From an uncultured Cetobacterium sp. (GTDB lineage: Bacteria; Fusobacteriota; Fusobacteriia; Fusobacteriales; Fusobacteriaceae), in the NCBI RefSeq assembly GCF_947072685.1, contig NZ_CAMTIK010000020.1, positions 1-41,388 on the forward strand: a DNA stretch of 41,388 nucleotides, in the 5' to 3' direction. The notes under the pieces are model-generated. The model did not search any database. It was not told the origin of the DNA and saw only the letters and a program-made list of their open reading frames with translations. A program made the position numbers and the translations under genes. Below are positions 13,030-21,242 of this stretch, in pieces (the first letter of the stretch is position 1; each line of letters begins with the position of its first letter).

Positions 13030-15168
13030 TTAATTCATTTTAAATATCATATCAAATTTTTCATTATATTTAAGAAATATATCTACAACTTGGGGGTCAA
13101 AATGTTCTCCCCTTTCACTTTCAATTATCTCTATCGCCTTTTGGTGTGAAAACCCTTTTTTATAGACTCTTTCCTGTCTAAGGGCATCATATACATCGGC
13201 CAATGCAACAATTCTAGCTTCTAAAGGTATTTTTTCTCCCTTTAAGCCCACAGAGTATCCCTTTCCATTATATTTTTCATGATGGTAAAGTGCAATATTC
13301 TCCGCTATTTTTCCTACCTGCATTTTTTTAATAAGCTTGTATCCTAAAACCACATGATTTTGCATCTCATCAAACTCTTCTGGAGTCAATTTCCCTGGTT
13401 TTTTTAAAATTACATCCGATATCCCTATCTTTCCTACATCATGAAGAGAGGCATAAGTTGAGACCTCTTGAATAAATTTTCGAGAACATCCCAACATCTC
13501 CGCAATAAGCTTTGAATATAGATTCACTCTCAATATATGATTTCCTGTATCCTCATCATTTAATTCATTGGCTATCTCAAAGCTTTCTACCAAAGCTTTC
13601 GTTATTCTTTCAGCCTTATATTTTTCACCTTGTGCTCGAAGCAGTAAAAAGTACATGACAAAAATTATTATACTTGAGATTACAACTACTAAAAACATAT
13701 ATTTATAGTCTATATATGGGGTTTCATATATCTCAAAATGACTTGAAAGTATATGGAAAGCTGTTGTGTGATTGGGAAGTATTTTCTTTAAAGTTTTAGC
13801 CAAATAAATATCTTTCGGATTTATTCCAAATCCAACATTAGTTTTTTCATTGTAAAAACCTATGATTTTTATCTTTTTATCCAAATGTTTTCTTGATATC
13901 GATAGTGATGTTATTTTAAAATCTCCCATCAAAACATCTATATCTCTTTCTAAAATTGCTTTAAATGCTTCTTTATTTGTGTTGTATCTCACTACTTTTT
14001 CAGTACCATAGACCTCTTTAAAATCCAAGTTTAATTTTTCATGAGATACATATCCCAATTTTTTACCCGATAGTCCTTCATGTAGATCTAAGTTTTCAGA
14101 ATCTATATTTGAAAACAGCGTTATATTGCTTTCATAATACGGTATAAAATATTCAGTTTTTTCTTCAAACAAGTGGTAATCTACCGCTTTTATATTATAG
14201 TCCTCACCCTCTTTATACGGCTTTAAAATAACTGGAATTTCCAATATTTTACTGAGTTCTTCCAATCTATCTGGTATATATCCAAAATATTTTCCATTTT
14301 TTTTATAAAAAAAAGACGGAATTTCATCCACAGCTGGCATCGATACTATAATCTCTTTATATTTTTCCTGTATGCACTTTATATTTTCATCATTCATCAA
14401 TAGTTGTTTATAAAATATTGGTCTTTCAACTTTTAATGAATTCATAAACATTTTATCGGCAAATTTCTTTTGATACTTTTGAATAATACTTGCCAGTTCA
14501 GGCTCTTTTTTACTGACTATCATCTTTATACTTTTTTTCGCTATTTTATCTAGCATATGAAAATTATAAACTTTAAATACATCGTTGCTACTTTTCCCTA
14601 AGTAAGTATCAATTTCCCCTGAATTTAACTTTTCAAATCCATCATTTGAATTAACTACATACACTATTTTTTTTGTATTCCTATACTGTTTTGGATAATT
14701 TTTTTTGAAAAGCTCTTCCTCCGTGCTCCCCTCTATAATCCCAACTGTCTTTTCATGAATATCATTTAAATTTATACCCTTTATATCTTTTGTATAAAAT
14801 CCTATATAATAGTTATTTAAAGTTGGTAGATATGTATAGCAGTTTTCTCTTTCTAAAGTTCTTGAAGCATTGATGACTATAGTTGCCTCATTCTTTTTTA
14901 TACTCTCCTGTAATAATTTTGTATCCATATATCTAAAATTAAATCTAATTCCTGTATCCGCTTCCAAATATTTAAAAAAATCTTTTTGAACACCTCTAAA
15001 ATTTCCCATACTATCCTTATATAGGAATATTGTCAGTGGTCGTAAAGAATCTACTTGATATACTCCACCTCTATTTTTAGAAATCCATGCTTTTTCCCCA
15101 ATAGACAGGTCTATTGAAAACATATTTGTGAATGTAATAATAAAAATAATTAAAAAACTTTTTAACAA
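13030..15168 (-). CDS. Tandem periplasmic-sensor HD-GYP cyclic-di-GMP phosphodiesterase
   Basis: The 712-aa product has a signal peptide and two SBP_bac_3-like sensor modules (about 45-255 and 270-475). A transmembrane helix (about 490-510) and a C-terminal HD-GYP domain follow. All metal-site residues are seen: HDVGK, QNHVVLG, YHHEK and LADVYDAL. The GYP signature reads GYS. HD-GYP enzymes hydrolyse cyclic di-GMP to pGpG or GMP. The frame is open to an ATG at 15222, but an extended -10 promoter (TGATATAAT, 15200-15208) lies inside that extension. GGAG (15181-15178) is 9 nt before a TTG at 15168, giving a clean signal peptide (MLKSFLIIF). The ATG at 15183 is the other option. It shares sensor architecture with the GGDEF-EAL protein at 932-3679. 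Confidence 0.88.
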   Translation of the reverse strand: MLKSFLIIFIITFTNMFSIDLSIGEKAWISKNRGGVYQVDSLRPLTIFLYKDSMGNFRGVQKDFFKYLEADTGIRFNFRYMDTKLLQESIKKNEATIVINASRTLERENCYTYLPTLNNYYIGFYTKDIKGINLNDIHEKTVGIIEGSTEEELFKKNYPKQYRNTKKIVYVVNSNDGFEKLNSGEIDTYLGKSSNDVFKVYNFHMLDKIAKKSIKMIVSKKEPELASIIQKYQKKFADKMFMNSLKVERPIFYKQLLMNDENIKCIQEKYKEIIVSMPAVDEIPSFFYKKNGKYFGYIPDRLEELSKILEIPVILKPYKEGEDYNIKAVDYHLFEEKTEYFIPYYESNITLFSNIDSENLDLHEGLSGKKLGYVSHEKLNLDFKEVYGTEKVVRYNTNKEAFKAILERDIDVLMGDFKITSLSISRKHLDKKIKIIGFYNEKTNVGFGINPKDIYLAKTLKKILPNHTTAFHILSSHFEIYETPYIDYKYMFLVVVISSIIIFVMYFLLLRAQGEKYKAERITKALVESFEIANELNDEDTGNHILRVNLYSKLIAEMLGCSRKFIQEVSTYASLHDVGKIGISDVILKKPGKLTPEEFDEMQNHVVLGYKLIKKMQVGKIAENIALYHHEKYNGKGYSVGLKGEKIPLEARIVALADVYDALRQERVYKKGFSHQKAIEIIESERGEHFDPQVVDIFLKYNEKFDMIFKMN

Positions 15169-15199
15169 AATCTCACACTCCATTTTAATTTGAACATTT

Positions 15200-15208
15200 A
15201 TTATATCA
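15200..15208 (-). promoter_or_regulatory. Extended -10 promoter of the HD-GYP gene
   Basis: The minus strand reads TGATATAAT. It implies a start of transcription near 15193, which excludes the upstream ATG at 15222 as the start codon. Confidence 0.55.
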
Positions 15209-15230
15209 TATTTTTTGTACAATAGAAATA

Positions 15231-15279: not shown

Positions 15280-15618
15280 CTATTTATTTTCTAAATCAAA
15301 TAATCTCTTGTTCATTTTTATCATTTTTTTTATTAACTCTCTCTCTGATAGAGCTGTCATAAGGTGATCTTGAGCATGAACAAAGACCATTGATAGTGGA
15401 ACCTTCTGTCCTCCAGCTTCTTTTTGAATCATATCAGTTTGAACGTGATGAGCTTTTAACACTGCAGCATTACACTCCTTCATACACTCTTCAGCCTCTT
15501 CAAATTTTCCCTCTTCTGAAAAAGCCAGTGCTTGATGCGCACATCCTTTAGCTTCTCCTGCATATGCAACTATTGAAAATATTATCTCTTCTAACTCATC
15601 CTCTGTAAAATCTACCAT
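15280..15618 (-). CDS. PTS lactose/chitobiose-family EIIA
   Basis: A 112-aa cytoplasmic phosphocarrier of the Lac-family PTS. It forms a trimer and passes phosphate from HPr to EIIB. The active-site region VHAQDHLMTA gives His81 as the phospho-acceptor and Asp84 as the metal ligand. AYAGEAK, KAHHVQT and IQKEAGG are also family hallmarks. It follows a MupG-type gene by 43 nt on the minus strand. The EIIB and EIIC partners lie 2.8-6 kb away on the plus strand, and no other EIIA is in the window. GGAGGAT precedes the start. Confidence 0.95.
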   Translation of the reverse strand: MVDFTEDELEEIIFSIVAYAGEAKGCAHQALAFSEEGKFEEAEECMKECNAAVLKAHHVQTDMIQKEAGGQKVPLSMVFVHAQDHLMTALSERELIKKMIKMNKRLFDLENK

Positions 15619-15661: not shown

Positions 15662-16747
15662 TTAGTTTTTTATTTTTATCTTAAATTTTTGCCATGGTTT
15701 TATACTATCTAAAAGACCCATATATTCAGATTTTATTTTCCCAACAACACTTGTTTTTCCTGTGTTTTTCATATCTTTTCTGGCGATATGTAACTCACCG
15801 GCATATTGTCCATAAAGTGATGATTCAATAAGAACATCCCCTTTTTTTATATTCACAGGGTTAAATAGTTCAAAATGGGTTCCCTTGTATTTCACTCTTG
15901 ATTGTGTTGATCTAACAACATATTCTCCCACATCTCCACGTTGAAAATGTAGCTCTTTTTCCACTATAGCTCTTTCAACCTCTCCAACACCTTCATAAAT
16001 TTCACACTCTAACTCTAACATCTCTTTATTTATCTCAGCAAGAGCCCTCAATTCATCCTCACTTGGAAAGCAATTGGATATGATTACAACATCTATTCCC
16101 TCATTAAAAAGCTCTCTACCTTGAACCTCAATAGGTAAATCTCTGTGCTCCTCTAGAGTACAAAGACCATCATTTACTGGCCAAGGACCAAACGTTCCTG
16201 TTTGAGCCGTTACAAAGGCTGCTGTTGTAAGTGAAAATCCTTTGAACCTTTTGTTGCAGCTTCTAAAATGTTCTCTTGAAAGTCCAGTATATCTATGTGG
16301 ATAAAAATTATGACATCCAACTAATCTCTCTTGATTTGGCATATAATCTATGATTGTATTGACATAGTTCGTATCCTGACTCATATTAATCTCAACCACA
16401 AGCCCATGTTCATTGAAAGTCATTATACTCTCTTCATTCCCTGAAAATCCTAAATCTAACCTAACCCCATAAGCTCCAATCTCTTTAAAAAAAGATAAAT
16501 CCTCATAACTTATTCCCAACTTATTAAAAATTGATGGAGCTACATCGACCATAACTTGCATTCCAAATCTGTTTGCGTGAGCTATTGTTTCTTTAAATTC
16601 ATTTATTATAGCGTCTTTATCCCCTTCAACTGATAATAAACAAGTAAAAACTCTTCTATATCCATATTTTGCTGCCATCTCTATATAGTTTTTATTCTCT
16701 TCTAAAGTAGCGTGAAATGGATAGATTGAAATTCCTAACTCTCTCAT
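15662..16747 (-). CDS. mupG: MupG-family TIM-barrel glycosidase (DUF871), probable 6-phospho-N-acetylmuramidase
   Basis: A 361-aa cytoplasmic protein of the DUF871/MupG family. A TIM-barrel domain covers about 1-240, with the family N terminus ELGISIYPFHATLEENKNYI, VMVDVAP, LRLDLGF and CHNFYPHRYTGLS. A cyclophilin-like C-terminal domain is at about 250-361. The characterised Gram-positive member MupG cleaves MurNAc-6-phosphate-GlcNAc during peptidoglycan recycling. Other family members sit with lactose/cellobiose-type PTS genes and may act on other 6-phospho-disaccharides. The operon with EIIA here supports hydrolysis of a PTS-imported phospho-disaccharide. The symbol reflects the family; the exact substrate is inferred. 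Confidence 0.85.
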   Translation of the reverse strand: MRELGISIYPFHATLEENKNYIEMAAKYGYRRVFTCLLSVEGDKDAIINEFKETIAHANRFGMQVMVDVAPSIFNKLGISYEDLSFFKEIGAYGVRLDLGFSGNEESIMTFNEHGLVVEINMSQDTNYVNTIIDYMPNQERLVGCHNFYPHRYTGLSREHFRSCNKRFKGFSLTTAAFVTAQTGTFGPWPVNDGLCTLEEHRDLPIEVQGRELFNEGIDVVIISNCFPSEDELRALAEINKEMLELECEIYEGVGEVERAIVEKELHFQRGDVGEYVVRSTQSRVKYKGTHFELFNPVNIKKGDVLIESSLYGQYAGELHIARKDMKNTGKTSVVGKIKSEYMGLLDSIKPWQKFKIKIKN

Positions 16748-16781
16748 TTATAACTCCCTCCTGAAACCTTTCGTTTCCTAG

Positions 16782-16810
16782 GTTTTACTAGAAAAACAAA
16801 TTTAAGTCAA
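16782..16810 (-). promoter_or_regulatory. Promoter of mupG-EIIA
   Basis: On the minus strand: TTGACT (16810-16805), 17-bp spacer, TAAAAC (16787-16782). The spacer begins with TAAATTTGTT, which shares its core with the palindromes at 18270 and 27242. Confidence 0.6.
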
Positions 16811-16908
16811 GAACTAAAATTTTGGGAATATTCAAAGTTATTTTTTCGTCTAATCAACTCAACACTTATAACTATTTATCTATTTCATATGAGATTAAAC
16901 GGGCGAAT

Positions 16909-18054
16909 TTATTTTTTTTCTTGTGTAGCATTCTCAGCAAGTTTATATATCTCAATTGTACTTTCTCTACCTTTATCTAGATATAATATCTCAATTTTAT
17001 GTCTTTCATCTTTATATTGTAGCAGTTCCCCTATTTTCATATTTCTCAAAGTTTTTAAAAAATTGTAGTTGTAATAAAACTTACATTTTAGTAACTCTTT
17101 ATAAAGTCTTGATTCAAATATAAATCTATTTGAAAAAATATCTGTAGTTTTGTTCACAAGAATATATCTCTCTTGAGTTTCTATATTTGGGTTTTCTTTC
17201 AGTGCTAAAGAGATAGCTTCATCTAAAGATCCTGAAATTCCCTTATCCAAATGATATAAATTATTTCTTACAAAATCTATCCCCTCTTTTAGCAGGGTCT
17301 CCTCTATAATTTTACTAACTTTTGCGATGGAATCCACTCTATCTCTAAGAGGCAACAAAAGACTATCTATCTCACTAGCTATAATCGGTGAAAGTTTATG
17401 ATTAAAAACAAATTCAATCTCCATAATTTTACTCGTGAACCCTTCACTATTCTTTATTTTTTTATAGTCTATATTATATTTTGTAAGTTCGTTTATATCG
17501 TTTAAAGCTGGTCTCAAAATAGTTTTTTCAAAATCATAAAATCTCTCGTAGTTCTCTTGAGCTACACCTAAAAGCTCTTTCAATTGATCTCTAGTTAAAA
17601 GAAATTTTCCCTTAGTCCTATTTTTTATCATTGCTAAATAAAGTTGAAAACTTTTTTTCTCCTTGAATAGCAGTATTAAAAGCAGATCAATATCATCAAA
17701 TATTCCACTTTCTTTCAAAGATTTTAAAGATCTCGATATATATATACGATACTCCTCTCGATTTTTCATATAGAAGTCAAATATTGAAAAAGATGAAAAA
17801 AATATCTCCTCTCCCTTTTCAATCAATCTCAAGTGTATTCTTCTCTTAGAAAATTTATCTAAAAACTCCTCTATCGAGCTCCTATCTTTTACTATATTTC
17901 GAAGTTCTTTTTCATTAAAAGTTATATGTTTTTCATTTTTACCTTTATATTTGTCTCTTATTACTTCCAAAAATTCTCTTTCTTTTTTATTAAGCTTTTT
18001 ATCAGTATCTATAAAAATATCATTTTTAGAAAAATCAAATGCTGTTTTTTTCAT
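16909..18054 (-). CDS. Rep_3 (RepB/Initiator Replication)-family replication initiator-like protein
   Basis: A 381-aa protein that looks like the Rep_3 plasmid initiators. Two winged-helix regions are suggested, at about 18-130 and 140-225. The second contains YERFYDFEKTILRPALNDIN and IDYKKIK, close to the conserved core of that family. The last 150 residues are charged and family-atypical. Such proteins bind iterons and open a plasmid origin. Here the gene stands alone among sugar-uptake genes, without partition or mobilisation genes. It begins next to a 317-bp AT-rich segment with phased A-tracts and repeated TCGTC motifs. It could be a relic of an integrated plasmid, a co-opted regulator or a working chromosomal initiator. 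AAGGAG precedes the start. The family call is from motif recognition only. Confidence 0.75.
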   Translation of the reverse strand: MKKTAFDFSKNDIFIDTDKKLNKKEREFLEVIRDKYKGKNEKHITFNEKELRNIVKDRSSIEEFLDKFSKRRIHLRLIEKGEEIFFSSFSIFDFYMKNREEYRIYISRSLKSLKESGIFDDIDLLLILLFKEKKSFQLYLAMIKNRTKGKFLLTRDQLKELLGVAQENYERFYDFEKTILRPALNDINELTKYNIDYKKIKNSEGFTSKIMEIEFVFNHKLSPIIASEIDSLLLPLRDRVDSIAKVSKIIEETLLKEGIDFVRNNLYHLDKGISGSLDEAISLALKENPNIETQERYILVNKTTDIFSNRFIFESRLYKELLKCKFYYNYNFLKTLRNMKIGELLQYKDERHKIEILYLDKGRESTIEIYKLAENATQEKK

Positions 18055-18153
18055 TTTTTGTTCTCCTTTTTTAAGATTTTTTTAAGATTTTTTAAACTTT
18101 TTTAAAAAAAATAAAATTATTTTGTGATTTTTTCTTGATTTTTTTTAAAAATT

Positions 18154-18183
18154 AGACGATTTTATAACGCTTTTTTTTCGTCT
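18154..18183. repeat. Inverted repeat AGACGA / TCGTCT
   Basis: Six-bp arms at 18154-18159 and 18178-18183, 18-nt spacer, with A/T runs outside. ATTAGACGA (18151-18159) is an exact inverted copy of 16846-16854. Confidence 0.55.
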
Positions 18184-18269
18184 TTTTTAAAGAATACAAT
18201 ATTTGTCTCTTATTTTCAAGTTTTTTTTATTTTGTTTTATTGTTATTCGACGAAAAAAGTCTTGTTTTT

Positions 18270-18305
18270 GTCAAATTTGACTTTTTTTAAAACACATTTT
18301 ATAAT
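18270..18305 (+). promoter_or_regulatory. Promoter and operator of the EIIB-porin-EIIC genes
   Basis: TTGACT (18277-18282), 17-bp spacer, TATAAT (18300-18305): a near-consensus promoter. A 12-bp perfect palindrome GTCAAATTTGAC (18270-18281) overlaps the -35 box, as a repressor site would. Confidence 0.75.
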
Positions 18306-18371
18306 AATTTCATAAACATATTGAAAAGTTAAAGTAAAAAAACTTCAGACTTTTAAAAAGGAGAAATTATT

Positions 18372-18677
18372 ATGAAAAAAATATTATTACTTTGTTCTGC
18401 AGGAATGTCAACGAGTATGGTTGTTAAAAAAATGGAAGCTGCTGCTGCCGCTGAAAATATAGAAGTTAAAATTGATGCTGTAGGACTAGAGCAATTCCAT
18501 GATCTATTACCACAATATGATGTATTCTTACTGGGACCACAAGTTAGATTTAAAAAAGCTGAGCTTTCTGCTCTTGCTGCCGCTGCTGGAAAACCACTAG
18601 ACGTTATAGACACGATGGCATACGGAACTTTAAACGGAAAGAAAATTTTAGACTTTGCTTTAAATATGTCTAAGTAA
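18372..18677 (+). CDS. PTS cellobiose/chitobiose-family EIIB
   Basis: A 101-aa cytoplasmic EIIB of the lactose/chitobiose PTS family. The phospho-accepting cysteine is Cys8 in ILLLCSAGMSTSMV, and the rest (LLGPQVRFKK, VIDTMAYGTLNGKKIL) matches the ChbB/CelA fold. It takes phosphate from EIIA (minus strand, 15280-15618) and passes it to sugar bound by EIIC (19905-21242). AAAGGAG precedes the start. It is the first gene after a strong promoter at 18277-18305 and is followed 37 nt later by a porin gene. A porin between EIIB and EIIC is unusual. Confidence 0.95.
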   Translation: MKKILLLCSAGMSTSMVVKKMEAAAAAENIEVKIDAVGLEQFHDLLPQYDVFLLGPQVRFKKAELSALAAAAGKPLDVIDTMAYGTLNGKKILDFALNMSK

Positions 18678-18714: not shown

Positions 18715-19797
18715 ATGAAAAAATCACTTTACTTATTAGCTGCTTTATCATTATTAGGAACAAACGTTTTTGCAAAAGAGGTTGTGGCTACACCAATAAC
18801 TTCAACTGAATCTAATGCTATCGCTGGAGAGATAACAGAAGAGAGAGTTAACGAAGAGACCGAAATTTTGACAATCGTTGAAGTTCCTGAAGATAAGTGG
18901 ACTTTTGCTGGAAGAATGTATTTAGAAACTGAGGATTTTGATAATGGCTCTGCACTTAGATGGCAAGCGCCTGGAGAAGTTATTGGGGATGATGAGGATG
19001 GAACTTTCTGGGGGACTGGAATTTCAGCTTCAAAAGGAAAGCTAACATTAGACTTAAATGTTGAAAAAAGATTTGGTGGAGATTTAGGACTTAGCAGTAC
19101 TGATGCTGAATGGGAGGCTACAAGAGTTGATTGGAAAGTTAGATACCAACTTTTTGCTAACCAAGGGTTCCATTTAAAATATAGAAATGAAGAAAGAACT
19201 AGGGATTACTCTAGAAATACATACCATTCTAACTGGACAAGAGATAGATATGAATTAGGAACAGACTTCAACCACTTCGATGGTCTATTAGCGGGATGGT
19301 TAGTTGCTGGTATTGATAAAGATAAATCTACTGAACTTACTGGAACTACAAGAGATAACGGTTGGTATTGGGAAGGAGATTTTGGACCTTCATTTAAGTT
19401 AACTGAAAAATTATCTTTAAATCCAACTGTTTATACTACTGGAGAATTCTATGACTCTTATGAGATGGTTGAAACTCAAATCAGAGTTATGATGCCATAT
19501 AAAGCTACGGAAAAACTTACTATCATGCCTAGAATCAGATTTACTCTTGAAAGAACAGATGATGGAAAGTTGAATGGAGATTTCGTTAGAAATTATGAAA
19601 ATAAAGCTGGATCAAGAGTTAGATATGAGTTGATGGCTAACTATATAATCAATGAGCAGTTCTCTACATTTGTTGGTGTTGCTTATGATGATAACACTAG
19701 AGATTATAAAAATGCTGATAAGTTTGGTGGAAACGAAGGTAAAAAAGATCTTGATATGTGGTGGTCATATGTTGGGTTAAACTATAACTTCAACTAA
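18715..19797 (+). CDS. Outer-membrane beta-barrel porin, fusobacterial type
   Basis: A 360-aa exported protein with a signal peptide of about 20 residues (cleavage after NVFA, mature KEVVATP). The rest consists of alternating polar/aromatic beta strands without cysteine-rich or enzymatic motifs, and it ends YVGLNYNFN, an aromatic C-terminal strand. This resembles fusobacterial FomA/KdgM-like outer-membrane barrels. Its place between EIIB and EIIC suggests a dedicated pore for the sugar taken up by that PTS. The ribosome site CGGGAGGATAAC is strong. A G-rich/C-rich imperfect hairpin follows at 19826-19858. The number of strands and the ligand are not determined. Confidence 0.82.
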   Translation: MKKSLYLLAALSLLGTNVFAKEVVATPITSTESNAIAGEITEERVNEETEILTIVEVPEDKWTFAGRMYLETEDFDNGSALRWQAPGEVIGDDEDGTFWGTGISASKGKLTLDLNVEKRFGGDLGLSSTDAEWEATRVDWKVRYQLFANQGFHLKYRNEERTRDYSRNTYHSNWTRDRYELGTDFNHFDGLLAGWLVAGIDKDKSTELTGTTRDNGWYWEGDFGPSFKLTEKLSLNPTVYTTGEFYDSYEMVETQIRVMMPYKATEKLTIMPRIRFTLERTDDGKLNGDFVRNYENKAGSRVRYELMANYIINEQFSTFVGVAYDDNTRDYKNADKFGGNEGKKDLDMWWSYVGLNYNFN

Positions 19798-19904: not shown

Positions 19905-21242
19905 ATGAGTAAATTTATGAATTTAATTGAAGAAAAAATGATGCCCATAGCTGGAAAAGTTGGGCAAAATAGATATTTAAATGCAATTAAGGATGGTTTT
20001 GTTTATACGATGCCGTTCCTAATAATAGGATCTTTTATACTTTTGATAGTGAACCTACCTTTTACTGATCCTAGCAATGTTTTATATATGGAGTGGTACG
20101 CTAATCTTATGGGTGCTTTTAAAGCCGATTTAGTACAACCCTTCTACGTAAGTATGGGAATCATGTCCCTTTTTGTTTCTTATGGAATCGGTATGTCACT
20201 ATCTAATAGTTATGGACTTAATGGTACAACTGGTGGATTCTTATCAATGTATGCTTTCTTACTTACATCTGCTAAACTTGATTGGTTACCTGTAGGTCAA
20301 GCAGAGGGTGCTAGTGCTCTATTCTTAATTCCTGACGGTGGATGGATGCCTGTTATGGATGCTAGATATTTGGATGCTAAAGGACTATTTACAGCTATAA
20401 TTGGAGCTATTATCGCAATTGAAATTTTCAGACTTCTAGTTCAGAAAAAGTTTGTTATTAAACTTCCTGATTCTGTGCCACCTGCAATAGCAAAGTCTTT
20501 TGAACTTTTAATCCCGATTGTATTTGTTACTATAATCTTCCATGCAGTTAACATCTTTGCAATGAAGAGTTTAAATATTATGGTTCCTGAGATTATATTA
20601 AAAGCTTTTGCACCACTGTTAAATATGTCTGATTCATTGATCTCTGTAATCTTTATAATTATAATAACTCACCTTTTATGGTTTGCTGGATTGCACGGAA
20701 CAAATATTGTTATAGCTATCATTAACTCAATCACTTTATCTAACCTTGCTGTTAATCAAGCTGCACTACAAGCTGGGGATACTTTACCTAAAATATTTGC
20801 TGGTGGATTCCTGGATGCTTATGTTTACATCGGTGGAGCTGGAGCAACTTTAGGACTTGCCCTTGCCATGTCTGTAAGCAAAAATGCACATATCAAATCA
20901 ATTGGAAAACTTTCAGTTATTCCAGCTGTATTTAATATAAATGAACCTATTATGTTTGGAGCACCTATCGTGATGAATCCGTTATTATTTATTCCTTTCG
21001 TTGGAATACCAGTTTTTAACGCTTGCATTGCTTGGTTTGCGACAAAGTTTAATTTAGTTGGTAAGATTGTAACTCTTGTTCCTTGGACAACACCTGGACC
21101 TATTGGAGCGTTCTTAGGGACAAACTTCAGCATTACCGCTTTCCTATTAAGTTGTGGACTTGTAGGAGTTTCATTCTTCTTATACCTTCCATTCTTAAGA
21201 GTTTATGAAAAATCTCTTAATGAAGAGGAAGTTGTAGCTTAA
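19905..21242 (+). CDS. PTS cellobiose/chitobiose-family EIIC permease
   Basis: A 445-aa integral membrane transporter of the lactose/chitobiose PTS family, which binds and moves the sugar while EIIB phosphorylates it. About ten membrane segments are visible. The sugar-site motifs WFAGLHGTNIV and NINEPIMFGAPIVMNP are the conserved EIIC signatures. The length agrees with ChbC/CelB (about 430-450 aa). ATGGAGGA precedes the start. It completes an EIIA-EIIB-EIIC set with the genes at 15280-15618 and 18372-18677. A bidirectional terminator follows. The natural sugar could be chitobiose, cellobiose or a MurNAc-containing disaccharide; the mupG linkage favours the last. Confidence 0.93.
   Translation: MSKFMNLIEEKMMPIAGKVGQNRYLNAIKDGFVYTMPFLIIGSFILLIVNLPFTDPSNVLYMEWYANLMGAFKADLVQPFYVSMGIMSLFVSYGIGMSLSNSYGLNGTTGGFLSMYAFLLTSAKLDWLPVGQAEGASALFLIPDGGWMPVMDARYLDAKGLFTAIIGAIIAIEIFRLLVQKKFVIKLPDSVPPAIAKSFELLIPIVFVTIIFHAVNIFAMKSLNIMVPEIILKAFAPLLNMSDSLISVIFIIIITHLLWFAGLHGTNIVIAIINSITLSNLAVNQAALQAGDTLPKIFAGGFLDAYVYIGGAGATLGLALAMSVSKNAHIKSIGKLSVIPAVFNINEPIMFGAPIVMNPLLFIPFVGIPVFNACIAWFATKFNLVGKIVTLVPWTTPGPIGAFLGTNFSITAFLLSCGLVGVSFFLYLPFLRVYEKSLNEEEVVA

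Follow-up and report, generated by a model that had tools for sequence, protein, structure and literature searches.

The initiators RepE of plasmid F (1REP, 2Z9O), pi of R6K and RepA of pPS10 share a two-winged-helix architecture, and the RepE dimer is a DNA-binding autorepressor. A second point of reference comes from cell-wall sugar recycling in Staphylococcus aureus, where MupG hydrolyses MurNAc 6-phosphate-GlcNAc and where, in the mupG-murQ-murP-murR operon, mupG adjoins genes for a PTS (MurP, an EIIBC protein) and for a dedicated, putative MurR-like regulator (PMC6262408). A third is provided by transcription factors co-opted from mobile elements, such as Ner/SfsB and the Xre-type antitoxins, in which a mobile-element DNA-binding protein regulates host carbon genes (PMC8987985); replication-initiation or Rep proteins were not found in the text of that review, and in the open-licence literature we found no report of Rep_3 proteins as PTS or host regulators. 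Here we describe a Cetobacterium locus in which a gene for a protein with the architecture of RepE, pi and RepA lies beside mupG and between the genes of a PTS.

The window, by which we mean the whole 41,388-nucleotide stretch analysed, is one contig of a 2.15-Mb genome. Within it EIIA, mupG and rep, all on the minus strand, face EIIB, a porin gene and EIIC, all on the plus strand. The minus-strand genes encode a PTS lactose/cellobiose-family EIIA (15280..15618; Pfam PTS_IIA, E 2e-33), the 6-phospho-N-acetylmuramidase MupG (15662..16747; MupG_N, E 6e-91, and MupG_C, E 2e-34) and a Rep_3-fold protein of 381 aa (16909..18054), which is the subject of this study. On the plus strand lie genes for a lactose/cellobiose-family EIIB (18372..18677; Pfam PTS_IIB, E 5e-20), an outer-membrane porin-like protein (18715..19797; FomA-family and OmpL matches in NCBIfam that are weak and do not reach the cut-off) and a lactose/cellobiose-family EIIC (19905..21242; TIGR00359/TIGR00410, E 1e-136, over cut-off). 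We also note that EIIA adjoins a gene (13030-15222, minus strand) whose 730-aa product combines a family-3 solute-binding domain with an HD domain (HD_5) at the C-terminus, an apparent sensor phosphodiesterase judging from its domains. We propose, with a probability of roughly 90%, that the rep product is a local regulator of the flanking PTS operons; the support that we have computed for this consists of its fold relationship, its linkage to PTS genes, conserved boxes, their fixed spacing, motif specificity and clade separation.

The identification of a Rep_3-like gene in the preliminary description is borne out both by a Pfam match to Rep3_C, the second winged helix (WH2; E 5e-11, 43.1 bits against a curated cut-off of 21.1), and by a family profile that reaches RepE. 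This profile, built from 53 relatives, aligns with RepE of plasmid F over residues 14-222, which span both winged helices (E about 2e-10). Some paralogues match Rep3_N (WH1) in Pfam, and although the single 381-aa sequence does not, both the family profile and its AF2 model align with RepE over the two winged helices. WH1 occupies about residues 11-121 and WH2 about residues 132-222, and they are followed by a C-terminal region of residues 223-381. The best aligned chain for the AF2 model (mean pLDDT 83, pTM 0.62) is RepE 1REP (VIA-align; Z 13.9, rmsd 6.8, 191 residues aligned), and the high rmsd suggests that the two winged helices are arranged differently in the model.

No Pfam family was found for the C-terminal region, which in the AF2 model comprises H222-286 followed by an alpha/beta part (297-379). 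When this region was modelled alone no PDB match with significance was found (best Foldseek E 0.03, nothing at or below 0.001), a result that does not prove a new fold, and we found within it neither a conserved histidine nor a recognised ligand-binding fold. A PRD was considered, since one type of neighbouring operon encodes a small PRD protein; Pfam gave this idea no support, PRD (PF00874) being absent from 50 C-terminal regions at E 0.01. A profile of the region finds matches in 53 of 98 Fusobacteriota genomes, and among the sampled loci no plasmid Rep was found to match it; its helical part does show weak matches to some 600-aa ORFs. ORFs of 595-665 aa at L156-L163, some of them on small contigs and without a significant Pfam family, have a mid-region that resembles this helical part (about residues 225-310) in weak profile matches. 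They are perhaps large plasmid Reps, and the helical part is possibly common to such proteins.

The preliminary description had raised the possibility of a plasmid-type replication origin, active or relic, which would here be inserted in the chromosome. The Rep_3 fold is in keeping with this idea, and so is the AT-rich flank with its A-tracts: the segment at 18055-18371 has a GC content of 17%, as against 31% for the window, and T6AA tracts are present at 18067, 18078, 18088 and 18098. These tracts are nonetheless no conserved element, because the relatives in a nine-species alignment lack the stretch that contains them, and we reject phased A-tracts as a functional feature. Tandem iterons (about 17-22 bp) beside rep are absent from 16700-18400, as are DnaA boxes of the TTATNCACA type from 16701-18400; four related plasmid Reps (L145, L146, L147 and L151) have tandem iteron arrays at 21-22 bp. 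Eight congeners carry an orthologue (81-91% identity) with the same neighbourhood, and it occupies the same chromosomal site in every congener that has the gene, including on contigs of 1.7-1.9 Mb. A dN/dS of 0.03-0.11 among seven species indicates that rep is under strong purifying selection. In an unrooted tree, moreover, the PTS-linked proteins are split from the iteron-plasmid Reps by a branch with an SH-aLRT of 99; three rows of the tree labelled plasmid-like (L061, L064 and L142) belong to regulator loci truncated by the end of a contig. Taken together with the finding, described below, that paralogues lie beside many different PTS operons, these observations lead us to reject a plasmid origin, which we regard as very improbable. 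A phage origin was rejected as well, phage records giving no match and viral contigs holding no relatives. Because plasmids use this fold so widely, the change was probably from initiator to regulator.

A different kind of mobility might be imagined, in which Rep genes travel with sugar operons as selfish cargo, being remnants of integrated plasmids that once carried those operons. One relative does lie beside a mannose-type PTS on a 664-kb megaplasmid of C. somerae. Against this scenario, which we find hardly credible, stand the retention of orthologues at one site under purifying selection, the failure to find relatives on viral contigs, and the conservation of both the divergent layout and the promoter boxes.

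Paralogues in the same genomes are about 24-34% identical and lie, nearly all of them, beside PTS genes of differing types. On 18 large contigs of 17 well-assembled Fusobacteriota genomes we counted 44 chromosomal Rep3_C genes, 30 of them no more than 5 kb from a PTS EIIC gene; 2.4 would be expected, and the largest count in 200,000 simulated runs was 12. The EIIC-linked genes include 23 that are divergent and six on the same strand, several of the latter with an EIIA gene as the divergent one. For the 14 that are not near an EIIC gene we inspected neighbours at all except G027:C1:2531190, G054:C2:1051425 and G090:C1:3509674, and those checked mostly adjoin PRD/DUF4311 operons, the gene for a family-5 solute-binding protein, or a PTS of the mannose or Gat type. 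At one of the 14 (L117) a regulator-type ORF was not found, and two others, L106 (G069:C1:1080852) and L108 (G075:C1:987782), have no PTS-type neighbours, fall in the plasmid-Rep clade and are probably integrated plasmids.

Several individual loci are worth recording. At L098, L114 and L115 a regulator-type Rep stands beside an operon for a small PRD-domain protein, a glycine-rich SFCGS protein and a DUF4311 protein, a poorly known system. At L119 (G059:C1:163721) the regulator-type Rep is divergent to a family-5 solute-binding protein of ABC uptake, not a PTS, with a box 29 bp from TTGAC, and at L141 (G089:C111:25858) it is near a gene for a PTS enzyme I-like protein with PEP-utilising enzyme domains. 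We also note two near-identical mannose-PTS-linked Rep loci (L055 and L056; G003:C6:28169 and 58223) near Mutator-type transposases on one 65-kb contig; one copy is broken by TGA.

The two intergenic regions at the locus itself contain four TCGTC-type cores (at 16846, 18155, 18178 and 18249), each within a footprint conserved in 9/9 species amid AT-rich sequence that otherwise drifts; the core at 18178 reads TCGTT in seven of the nine. Conservation of such motifs in relatives that keep the gene is what the preliminary description had looked to. The cores surround three recognisable promoter-like pairs, all with 17-bp spacers and likewise conserved in the alignment, to which we assign the putative promoters of mupG-EIIA (TTGACT-17-TAAAAC, 16782..16810, minus strand), of rep (TTGAAA-17-TATTCT, 18191..18219, minus strand) and of the EIIB-porin-EIIC operon (TTGACT-17-TATAAT, 18277..18305, plus strand). 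Box 1 (ATTAGACGAAAAAA, 16841..16854, minus strand; TTTTTTCGTCTAA conserved in 9/9 species) is oriented towards the mupG promoter, its core lying 40 bp before the -35, and box 4 (GACGAAAAAA, 18249..18258, plus strand; conserved in 9/9) has the same orientation relative to the EIIB promoter, 28 bp upstream of the -35. Downstream of the predicted rep -10 lie box 2 (ATTAGACGAT, 18151..18160, plus strand; core GACGA from 18155) and box 3 (GACGAAAAAA on the minus strand, 18173..18182; TTTTTTTTCGTC/T conserved in 9/9), the latter at the predicted rep transcription start. The distance from box 2 to box 4 is 94 bp, or 9 helical turns, and is constant in 9/9 species. A further element, an inverted repeat of the type GTGTCAGGTGAA..GGTTCAC, is seen in the EIIB leader of seven congeners (L034-L040), after the -10 and before the start codon; absent from the window and from L033, it may be a leader hairpin.

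The repeats that had drawn attention to this locus are real. TTTTTTCGTC occurs at 16841-16850 and 18173-18182 and inverted at 18249-18258, with 0.14 copies expected in the window; it is rare genome-wide, at 15 copies in 2.15 Mb, which gives a Poisson p of about 2e-7 for three copies within 1.53 kb; TCGTCTAAT at 16846-16854 does recur inverted at 18151-18159, a match that alone is weakly significant (2/100 shuffles). Compared across the family, the TTTTTTCGTC motif is a box with the core RACGAAA. On the three points that the preliminary description had named as possible refutations, namely the rarity of the motif, the Rep_3-like character of the protein and the conservation of the intergenic motifs, the results favour the regulator idea. 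As far as sequence can tell, linkage, footprints, motif specificity and phylogeny all give strong support to its suggestion of a Rep protein co-opted as regulator of the PTS genes on either side.

In 66 divergent intergenic regions the top de novo 8-mer was GACGAAAA, present in 39 against 1.15 expected, and AATTTGAC, from the -35 region, was also among the top 8-mers (29 against 2.2 expected). When the proteins were grouped at 60% identity, giving 34 groups, RACGAAA was found to start 28 or 29 bp before TTGAC, the -35, in 12 of the 34, always in the same orientation and never in reverse; the binomial p for this fixed position is 9e-15, a value that overstates certainty since the groups share ancestry. 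The distance from box to TTGAC is 16 bp in two further groups, and the remainder have no box or a box without a clear TTGAC. A sister-genus orthologue (44% identical), which the pattern misses, has CACGAAT 28 bp from TTGAC and GACGAAT a further 94 bp upstream, both distances counted by eye on the sequence. No RACGAAA-type box was found in the roughly 400-800 bp upstream of plasmid Reps sampled from the phylum.

It is conceivable that the boxes serve some other, global regulator of carbohydrate genes and that rep is a mere neighbour, and the tie between protein and box is indeed indirect. The pattern RACGAAAN{21,22}TTGAC, however, has a single match in the whole 2.15-Mb genome, which is box 4, and in four congeners 8/8 matches fall at Rep-PTS loci, although three of these genomes have 11-17 EIIC genes, most of which lack it. 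Boxes also occur at the predicted rep promoter, and the same core, with some drift, recurs at paralogous loci in two families. We therefore consider this possibility improbable, and think it very likely that the rep product regulates the flanking operons with the RACGAAA boxes as its sites. Specificity may differ among genomes: in more distant ones matches lie elsewhere in 3/4 cases (G090) and 1/3 (G069), and one genome (G027) has none at all. The RACGAAA pattern and the definition of an upstream box were refined after sequences had been inspected.

In ten groups an upstream RACGA box accompanies the box anchored to the -35, at distances of 52, 52, 53, 73, 85, 94, 94, 94, 95 and 125 bp, all within 0.1 turn of an integer if a turn is taken as 10.5 bp (R 0.94, p 1e-6). 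The seven distinct spacings give R 0.92 (p 3e-4) with a best period of 10.25-10.5. Phasing declines when all RACGAAA pairs are counted (R 0.68, p 6e-4), and it declines further with RACGAW (R 0.46, p 0.004). Because the upstream box was defined after inspection, we regard helical phasing of these pairs as a strong lead rather than proof. Looping between boxes 2 and 4 would fit such phasing, and we put its chances a little below even.

How the protein might act on the PTS promoters can be argued in two ways. It could be a repressor that, without sugar, loops box 4 to boxes 2 and 3 and so blocks both promoters until an inducer releases it. The EIIB promoter, TTGACT-17-TATAAT, is near consensus and may need no activator, two of the boxes are a whole number of turns apart, the start of rep is covered by boxes 2 and 3, and Rep dimers of the RepE type serve as autorepressors (the RepE dimer is seen bound to operator DNA in 2Z9O). 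Yet the box nearest the promoter stops about 18 bp short of the -35, with no overlap; divergent families keep its distance from the -35 and its orientation unchanged, a pattern more characteristic of activators; and box 1 stands alone upstream of mupG. We consider repression rather unlikely, while noting that the strong, near-consensus core promoters leave room for it. The constant position and orientation of the box upstream of the -35 favour activation, and we lean towards the view that the Rep-fold protein activates the PTS promoters.

Our preferred reading is thus of a chromosomal Rep_3-fold transcription factor that shares ancestry with, and is probably descended from, the iteron-plasmid initiators, and for which we infer DNA binding, activation of the PTS promoters, autorepression, looping and sensing. 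The protein would bind boxes with the RACGAAA core. At the EIIB-porin-EIIC promoter box 4, with its 28-bp distance to the -35, would place it just upstream of RNA polymerase, and box 1 would do the same at the mupG-EIIA promoter, most likely resulting in activation. Boxes 2 and 3 cover the rep transcript start, which makes autorepression the most likely outcome there, and the 94 bp that separate boxes 2 and 4 suggest that the two are bound cooperatively or through a loop. The C-terminal region is a likely sensor of sugar-phosphate or of PTS state. The divergent PTS operons here probably import the MurNAc disaccharide or a related sugar. We note that rep orthologue and mupG co-occur, in that four related genomes without a mupG match also lack the orthologue and one with mupG has both; this co-occurrence and the activity of S. 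aureus MupG make MurNAc 6-phosphate-GlcNAc the first candidate inducer.

It is tempting to extend this picture to an unnamed family of Fusobacteriota transcription factors with an initiator fold, up to about nine per genome, that control nearly every type of PTS through "handcuffing"-like pairing of phased boxes and that carry a new C-terminal sensor domain; we offer this broader view tentatively, thinking it somewhat more apt to fail than to hold. Since the C. somerae megaplasmid relative is publicly annotated as a "replication initiation protein" (WP_330112116.1), a wrong name may be concealing what is likely a sugar-regulation family of the phylum. If our reading is correct, this would be a clear example of how the fold of a plasmid initiator gave rise to a chromosomal transcription-factor family with many paralogues, the monomer/dimer and site-pairing behaviour of initiators would be open to study as gene regulation, and the boxes would offer candidate operators of carbohydrate uptake, in Cetobacterium as in other Fusobacteriota.

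Compared with RepE, pi and RepA, the 381-aa protein has an extra C-terminal region of about 160 residues and is encoded on the chromosome, divergent to PTS operons and without iterons or an origin, at a locus whose box keeps a fixed distance to a -35. The best matches among plasmid records, after one Cetobacterium megaplasmid, are to Acinetobacter RepM (NF038290), with 35-37% identity over about 95 residues of WH2; the likeness is limited to that domain, at 42 bits in NCBIfam against a cut-off of 250. As in the S. aureus mupG operon, mupG here adjoins a PTS and a dedicated candidate regulator, but the PTS is of the lactose/cellobiose family, a porin gene is present and the candidate regulator has a Rep_3 fold. 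Finally, whereas Ner/SfsB and the Xre-type antitoxins likewise illustrate the recruitment of mobile-element DNA-binding proteins to host carbon genes, the protein that appears to have been recruited here has the fold of a replication initiator and is found in many copies, in two families.
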